Virus record (IMG/VR): IMGVR_UViG_3300030090_002467
Span: 1-25,939 of that record
Length of the DNA stretch: 25,939 nucleotides
Source of the DNA: a virus
Strand: one strand, 5' to 3'
Part shown: positions 2,019 through 5,149 of the stretch, piece after piece
How the letters are laid out: every line of letters starts with the position of its first letter
How positions within the stretch are numbered: position 1 is the stretch's first letter
The notes under the pieces: model-generated
What the model was told of the DNA's origin: nothing
Databases searched by the model: none
What the model saw: only the letters and a program-made list of their open reading frames with translations
Translations under genes and position numbers: made by a program

Positions 2019-2258
2019 TTATTTTTCTTTTTCTTTCACGAATCTATGTCCTGCACACACCTCATCAATGAAGGTGAATATCTCTTGTGTAATCCAATTA
2101 GATTGCATTGTCTTATCTAGTATCTCTTGCGCATCTTCATCACTACACTCGTAGTTCTGCTTAATGTCATCTACGTGCCACAGATTATTAGTGTAAAATC
2201 CTCTCGATGCTAACTCATCACGAAGGTCGTTTGAGTTTATGTCTTTTAACTTATTCAT
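2019..2258 (-). CDS. Conserved small phage protein (79 aa), LRDELASRGFxTxNLWxxxDI family
   Basis: The N-terminal pattern LRDELASRGFYTNNLWHVDD followed by QNYECSDEDAQEILDKTM is one I recognise from many phage and plasmid genomes, where it is a short acidic protein of unknown role. Its ATG is preceded by the leader ACATACAAA, which is one copy of a 19-bp direct repeat; the other copy lies inside the 3' end of the upstream gene. It ends one base before the start of the zinc-ribbon gene. Confidence 0.75.
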   Translation of the reverse strand: MNKLKDINSNDLRDELASRGFYTNNLWHVDDIKQNYECSDEDAQEILDKTMQSNWITQEIFTFIDEVCAGHRFVKEKEK

Positions 2259-2275
2259 TTTGTATGTGATTTAAT
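2257..2275. repeat. 19-bp direct repeat, copy 1 (start-codon side)
   Basis: The + strand sequence ATTTTGTATGTGATTTAAT is identical to positions 2353-2371. On the - strand this copy is the leader and first bases of the start codon of the gene ending at 2019. The copies are 96 bp apart and bracket the possible structured RNA at 2280-2347. Confidence 0.9.
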
Positions 2276-2279
2276 AATA

Positions 2280-2347
2280 ATGAGGGTAGGTAACACGCCA
2301 TATAGCCACCTATTACTCGATTGGTTTCGCCTAATCAAAACCCTCAT
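2280..2347 (-). ncRNA. Possible structured RNA element between two small genes
   Basis: The outer arms ATGAGGGT (2280-2287) and ACCCTCAT (2340-2347) are perfectly complementary over 8 bp. Inside, on the - strand, are a hairpin GATTaGG-CGAAA-CCAATC with one bulged base, and a second stem TAGGT/ACCTA. Together they would form a three-way junction of 68 nt, about tRNA size, but without tRNA consensus bases. There is no ORF in it. It could be a processing, attenuation or protein-binding element of the early transcript. Pairing was judged by eye only. Confidence 0.4.
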
Positions 2348-2350
2348 ATA

Positions 2351-2533
2351 TTATTTTGTATGTGATTTAATTGCATCAATAAGACTTTCTCTTGCATGTG
2401 TCGGATCGGATAGCACTGCATGTACTAGCCACCTAAACTCTGTTATCATGGCTTCATCATCATATCCGTCTGTATCATTTCCCCACACCTCGTTGATGTA
2501 TTGTTCTGCTTGTTGTTGTATTTTGTAACTCAT
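2351..2533 (-). CDS. Small hypothetical protein (60 aa)
   Basis: A 60-residue acidic product, MSYKIQQQAEQYINEVWGND onward, with an FRWLVHAVLSDP helix and C-terminus DAIKSHTK. The last codons (AIKSHTK and stop) are encoded by the second copy of the 19-bp repeat. It overlaps the upstream gene by ATGA. No family was recognised. Confidence 0.65.
   Translation of the reverse strand: MSYKIQQQAEQYINEVWGNDTDGYDDEAMITEFRWLVHAVLSDPTHARESLIDAIKSHTK
2353..2371. repeat. 19-bp direct repeat, copy 2 (inside a gene 3' end)
   Basis: Identical to 2257-2275. On the - strand this copy encodes the last residues of the 60-aa gene starting at 2533. The copy pair suggests that the 96-bp unit between them arose by duplication or insertion. 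Confidence 0.9.
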
Positions 2534-4911: not shown

Positions 4912-4932
4912 TTGCTTTGTTTATTGTCTAAG

Positions 4933-4962
4933 ACGCTTCACAGCGTTTCGGGTATTCAACCC
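4933..4962 (-). promoter_or_regulatory. Two consecutive small hairpins between the first two early genes
   Basis: On the - strand GGGT-TGAAT-ACCC (4962-4950) is followed by ACGCT-GTGA-AGCGT (4946-4933). The second has a GNRA-type tetraloop (GTGA). They fill the 58-bp gap between the genes ending at 4970 and starting at 4911 and could act in RNA processing or attenuation. No T-run follows. Confidence 0.3.
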
Positions 4963-4969
4963 TCGTCAG

Positions 4970-5149
4970 TTAGACTATTTTTGCTTCAAGATTCTCAATC
5001 TTTGCTTCAGCTTCCCTCAAGTACTTCTCGTAATCGTCTCTTTCTCTTTCAAGTTGCTCTATGAGTTCGTCTCTTCTTTTAATCATATTGAGGCTTGCTT
5101 TAATTGATTCTTTAAGTGCCTCGATTAGCTGTTTATCTAAGTTTTTCAT
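4970..5149 (-). CDS. Small coiled-coil protein (59 aa), first gene of the - strand arm
   Basis: Translated by hand from ATG 5149 (leader AAACGAAACAAG) to TAA 4970-4972. The sequence MKNLDKQLIEALKESIKASL followed by an EQLERERDDYEKYLREAEAK stretch and IENLEAKIV shows heptad spacing of Leu and Ile over nearly its full length, so a dimeric coiled coil is likely. It is the gene nearest the control region and so is probably transcribed first. Function unknown. Confidence 0.7.
   Translation of the reverse strand: MKNLDKQLIEALKESIKASLNMIKRRDELIEQLERERDDYEKYLREAEAKIENLEAKIV

Follow-up and report, generated by a model that had tools for sequence, protein, structure and literature searches.

A three-way-junction RNA family without an Rfam 15 counterpart in phages of Bacteroidota, with copies inserted at gene ends

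The window, a 25,939-nucleotide stretch of the virus record IMGVR_UViG_3300030090_002467 of IMG/VR, carries a 68-nt three-way-junction RNA of a family that has covarying stems and a loop contact and is without counterpart in Rfam 15. This family is found in related phages of Bacteroidota, viruses of aquatic bacteria. Comparison with related records showed that the copies of the window and of one other contig, L011, arose by insertion at a gene end, in which 17-19 bp of the local sequence were duplicated; in the overall reading the insertion in the window took place recently and left a copied gene-end stretch on each side. The element could well be an accessory small-RNA gene, giving a stable RNA that would be co-transcribed with early genes and probably excised, a reading that is preferred here although we place it slightly under an even chance. 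The features of the window are as follows.

2019-2258, minus strand: downstream gene, 79 aa (MNKLKD...), no known family
2257-2275: copy of the 19-bp direct repeat that makes up the leader and the first two start-codon bases of the downstream gene
2276-2352, minus strand: 77-nt inserted segment between the 19-bp repeat copies
2280-2347, minus strand: 68-nt three-way-junction RNA (model position p is window position 2348-p)
2280-2286, minus strand: closing stem P1, 3' strand CCCTCAT, the same seven pairs as its 5' strand
2287-2312, minus strand: P3 hairpin TAGGTGGC-TATATGGCGT-GTTACCTA, conserved loop, two-sided changes in 7 of 8 pairs
2298-2329, minus strand: predicted L2-L3 contact from mutual information, with pairs 2329-2298 (C-G or A-U) and 2326-2302 (A-U, G-C or G-U) and covarying positions 2324/2303
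2319-2336, minus strand: P2 hairpin GATT(A)GG-CGAAA-CCAATC, 98.6% of cells paired, strongly conserved NGARA loop
2341-2347, minus strand: closing stem P1, 5' strand ATGAGGG, two-sided changes in the family in all 7 of 7 pairs
2351-2533, minus strand: upstream gene, 60 aa (MSYKIQQ...SHTK), no known family
2353-2371: copy of the 19-bp direct repeat in which the upstream gene ends, identical to 2257-2275
4926-4975, minus strand: hammerhead ribozyme by pattern, stem I GTCTAA/TTAGAC, CTGACGAG, CGAAA, stem III CGCT..AGCG

The RNA and both neighbouring genes are carried on the minus strand in the same sense. As the sequence-only reading had it, the 19-bp sequence occurs in two identical copies, at 2257-2275 and 2353-2371, with a spacing of 96 bp; the latter is the end of the gene at 2351-2533 and the former the leader of the gene at 2019-2258. 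Its further idea, that the insert brought its own translation start, is not clear, as the second copy restores the leader that the downstream gene would have had. In-silico removal of 96 bp from the window gave ...AAAATGAATAAG and restored a 4-bp stop/start overlap of the ATGA type, which was also seen at other nearby junctions.

The 68-nt segment is indeed closed by pairing of its ends, ATGAGGG with CCCTCAT, over 7 bp (8 with the next A-U pair), and encloses two hairpins. The folding energy of the minus strand was -22.2 kcal/mol compared to -14.9 kcal/mol for shuffled sequences (z -2.5), with 4 of 200 shuffles folding as well. Taken alone, single-sequence folding of the window RNA is weak evidence, while the comparison of 37 distinct relatives is strong evidence.

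For this comparison a covariance model built from two copies (R1) found further copies in related phages, and a gapped pattern search of IMG/VR, which catches members with conserved loops and misses others, matched 57 stretches. Loci L153 and L174 were excluded as members, and the weak second matches in L147 and L174 as well as the match in L189 were not counted. Alignment A6 comprises 57 loci with 37 distinct sequences, the window and L132 among them. All three stems covary in A6: 89.9% of stem cells were paired (68.6% after shuffling) and changes on both sides were found in 17 of 21 pairs. The covariation score was 0.609, against 0.210 for shuffled and at most 0.157 for slid alignments, in an alignment fitted to the R1 structure and thus leaning toward it, while the ranking by mutual information is structure-free. 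Among the top 13 pairs of this ranking two were loop-loop and the others stem pairs; one more loop-loop pair ranked lower. At alignment columns 21-54 (C-G in 21 sequences, A-U in 16) and 24-50 (A-U in 31, G-C in 4, G-U in 2) a standard pair was present in every sequence, and columns 26-49 covary as C/A or U/G; the first two are the L2-L3 pairs 2329-2298 and 2326-2302 of the window, standard in 100% of the family. The covariation shows a three-way junction that is predicted to be locked by contact between the two hairpin loops. As G-U cells (37) exceed A-C cells (9), the gene-sense strand is taken to be the functional RNA. In a cmsearch the 68-nt RNA scored 101.6 bits with model R1 and 80.5 bits with R2, both of which include the window sequence. 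The suggestion of a structured RNA is therefore strongly supported, since covariation was looked for in related phages and found in stems and loop-loop pairs alike. The possibility that chance or ordinary coding and start sequence accounts for the repeat and the fold, to which the only modest advantage of the single-sequence fold over shuffles might point, can be dismissed, being contradicted by the family-wide covariation and by the matching empty site in L042 described below.

No Rfam 15 family reached its curated threshold in the window or in 12 member loci, and the best match near the element in a permissive search had 17.9 bits against a threshold of 100. No description of this three-way-junction RNA was found in the open-access literature.

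Exactly one credible copy of the element was present in each of 30 carrier records, and most relatives examined are without it. All carriers are metagenomic records of uncultivated viruses, and several are fragments. Twelve carriers, including the window, have terminase and portal genes in common (phrog_6681, phrog_6547), and the nearest annotated relatives of these twelve include Flavobacterium elemo and Cellulophaga phages. Outside the carriers, BLAST comparison of phage and plasmid collections with the window element and with member regions yielded short chance matches only. Five pattern matches in genome contigs of bacterial chromosomes were read as chance, and two weak matches in 395 Bacteroidota genomes as coding sequence and a terminator. 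The single match in 13 annotated phage records, in Tenacibaculum phage Gundel_1, looks like a degenerate tRNA heading a tRNA array.

The insertion was best resolved for the copy in L011, the one other contig retrieved with the P2-hairpin pattern, whose unit agrees with that of the window at 64 of 68 bases. This unit follows a GP88-family gene (PF17338) and is bracketed by a different repeat of 17 bp. In L042 the uninterrupted counterpart of the site was found, with the gene end and the following sequence 96-97% identical and a single repeat copy. Both repeat copies of L011 carry the bases of L011 itself where L042 differs, which indicates that the duplication was made locally. L042 and L011 thus present the picture of a target-site duplication, with one copy in the empty site and two copies of the local allele in the filled one. 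For the window, the relatives of the 60-codon gene in L002-L005, L007, L009 and L010 end in ATTAAATCACATACAAAATGA or a one-base variant and run straight into other genes with no insert; as none of the relatives found has the two flanking genes of the window directly joined, the empty site is one-sided here. An inserted unit, as had been proposed, is hence supported from two sides for the sister copy and from one side for the window. The element DNA of the window and L011 is 90% identical over 90 nt, compared to 69-82% for most other aligned stretches of the two phages (one 41-bp stretch reaches 95%), a difference that points to transfer.

Of the earlier proposal of a tiny mobile or regulatory RNA unit, the RNA part stood. 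Self-movement is unsupported: each record holds one copy, the ends have nothing constant but a few A/T bases, a reverse transcriptase was not found, and protein genes are bracketed likewise. A regulatory role is possible, with no gene constantly adjoining. The element resembles a MITE in its shortness, its ends able to pair and its flanking target duplication, but unlike a MITE it occurs once per record, has covarying instead of fixed ends and is flanked by duplications of 17 and 19 bp; origin from a MITE or an insertion sequence was rejected on the single credible copy in each of 30 records and on closing-stem ends that vary and covary. Outside the closing stem the window and L011 inserts share few bases, which are A/T-rich. 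Clean flanking repeats were seen in these two copies only and are not a general mark of the family. A search for reverse transcriptase (PF00078) had no match in 36 records, including G000 and G009, where G000 is a 26-kb record that may be incomplete and a host enzyme is possible. No RNA ligase was found in the carriers.

A scan for repeats of 15-60 bp with an empty site elsewhere revealed protein-gene insertions of the same form. They came from comparisons of L134 with L156 (21-bp repeat, flanks 96% identical), L053 with L099 and L169 with L140 (26 bp each), L144 with L140 (40 bp), and L185 with L138 (31 bp); in several of them the repeat consists of the end of one gene and the start of the next. 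The RNA therefore appears as one cargo among others, and the exact junction copies of 21-40 bp around inserted genes may reflect a general mode of gene gain.

The genes next to the element vary widely, with no constant neighbour. The element lies in sense direction at gene boundaries, and about half of its distinct copies start 0-14 nt past a stop codon; the distance to the next start codon ranges from 10 to about 430 nt, and at least five T directly follow P1 in 13 of 37 copies. Two further settings are represented by a single contig and by one small clade, respectively. In contig L184 ARAGORN gave an array of 22 gene calls, including an overlapping tmRNA call, and the element takes up a space of tRNA size in it, flanked by tRNA-Leu(caa) and tRNA-Leu(taa). 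In L108 and L138 a hammerhead core lies directly 5' of the element and its stem I closes after it, so that the element makes up stem III; the scan gave a 63-nt stem III with the stop codon upstream and the ATG downstream in place, and L185 has the same arrangement of hammerhead and element.

Several further modules were noted near the element or in hammerheads. In L079 and L206 the hammerheads have a stem III of 71 and 95 nt, which contains insertions of other kinds. Two recurrent, apparently structured non-coding modules (TAGTGCGACAAG... and TAGGTAAGTATTTATGG...) adjoin the element in L166, L157, L047 and L177 and in L182, L155 and L179. A 95-nt tRNA-like gene (GTGAGTG...CACTCAC, with a T-arm) that ARAGORN does not call was seen in L055, L150, L010, L089, L094 and others; its place in L003/L055 and L072 is after the GP88 gene, where the element is found in L011. 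In L181, L135, L068 and L141 other strongly folding intergenic segments lie beside the element, each found once in the loci examined.

The reading as a stable RNA gene is favoured by the one copy per genome, the lack of a constant neighbour, the site in the tRNA array and the predicted hammerhead release in one clade. The element would be transcribed together with the early operon and cut out of the long transcript. In L108 and L138 the hammerhead would cleave at the 3' end of the element and release it, and in L184 excision among the tRNAs would presumably be left to tRNA-processing enzymes. The product may then act as a stable RNA wherever the element is inserted, much as phage tRNA genes do. 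With these genes it shares a similar size, a position that varies among related phages and, in one copy, a place in a tRNA array, but it has neither cloverleaf nor anticodon arm, and ARAGORN, which gave no tRNA in the window, did not call it in any of the member loci scanned. Against a stable RNA speaks the sense orientation at gene boundaries, often 0-14 nt after the stop codon, as a cis-acting element would show. The single copy does not separate the two either, as hammerheads in these genomes also number 0-2 by scan.

Hammerheads flanking genes are known from prophages (Perreault et al. 2011, PMC3088659). At gene boundaries of the present phages they are common, with 24 distinct ones in the related loci scanned, e.g. 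L097, L155, L183 and L144. They are pattern-based calls, since a permissive Rfam search of one stretch left its hammerhead unreported. Their slot is a fixed one: in most of them the upstream stop codon is no more than 10 nt away from where stem I starts, and an ATG follows 14-33 nt after stem I. The only hammerhead of the window by scan, at 4926-4975, overlaps the stop codon of the gene at 4970-5149, with the next ATG 14 nt on. Like the hammerheads between phage genes (PMC3088659), the element occupies the same slots of the same phages in sense orientation, forms a three-way junction, and is nested with them in L108/L138. It differs from them in that the CUGANGA...GAAA core with three stems is absent from its 68 nt, its conserved bases lying in the two hairpin loops.

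The element could thus, though somewhat doubtfully, be a cis-acting module of mRNA boundaries, a structured end that would both separate and protect the messages of adjacent genes, the role that hammerheads may play in these phages. It shares their type of slot, with a stop codon that lies within or next to the first stem and an ATG that usually follows at 14-33 nt, and both its closeness to stop codons and the T runs after P1 would suit such a module. A few genes (L097, L090, L155) come with one of the two, element or hammerhead, while a homologue in a different phage has the other; these substitutions are suggestive, but too few and not clearly above base-rate expectation. The conservation of loops and tertiary pairs also exceeds the needs of a mere end-protector, the L184 copy lies between tRNA genes and not protein genes, and the next start codon stands at a variable distance.

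It is unlikely that the element represents a new class of small self-cleaving ribozyme, cutting polycistronic phage RNA where related phages use hammerheads. A small, compact, loop-loop locked RNA with highly conserved unpaired bases in hammerhead-type slots of hammerhead-carrying phages would fit, but the foot of P1 has no conserved base, and in L108/L138, where the element is nested in a hammerhead, there would be no need for a second ribozyme. The HDV-like theta ribozymes of gut phages, with Bacteroidota hosts and sometimes directly beside tRNAs (Kienbeck et al. 2024, PMC10879173), are likewise small phage RNAs. Theta ribozymes have double-pseudoknot HDV folds, whereas the element is an open three-way junction with loop-loop pairs and one tRNA-array case. 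Covariation supports this P1-closed junction with L2-L3 pairs and no nested double pseudoknot; a tRNA 3' end within 5 nt, as at the cleavage sites of tRNA-associated theta ribozymes, was found in L184 only, with no tRNA in the window.

It is quite improbable that the element is a ligand-binding, riboswitch-like domain, by which the hammerhead of L108/L138 would be tuned. Purine riboswitch aptamers are three-way junctions closed by P1 with their hairpin loops in contact, and the element recalls this architecture, with P3 directly against P1; it also appears modular and fits onto hammerhead stem III. It differs in its conserved bases, has no constant regulated gene and no match to an Rfam riboswitch, and one copy lies in a tRNA array.

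An RNA family absent from Rfam 15, with covarying stems and a loop-loop contact, is a concrete new target, and the family, the empty site, the hammerhead nesting and the tRNA-array position open the way to cheap experiments. In these phages protein genes and this RNA gene alike were gained at gene junctions with 17-40 bp duplicated and both neighbours left intact. Such junction duplications may be a readable record of gene acquisition by compact phage operons.
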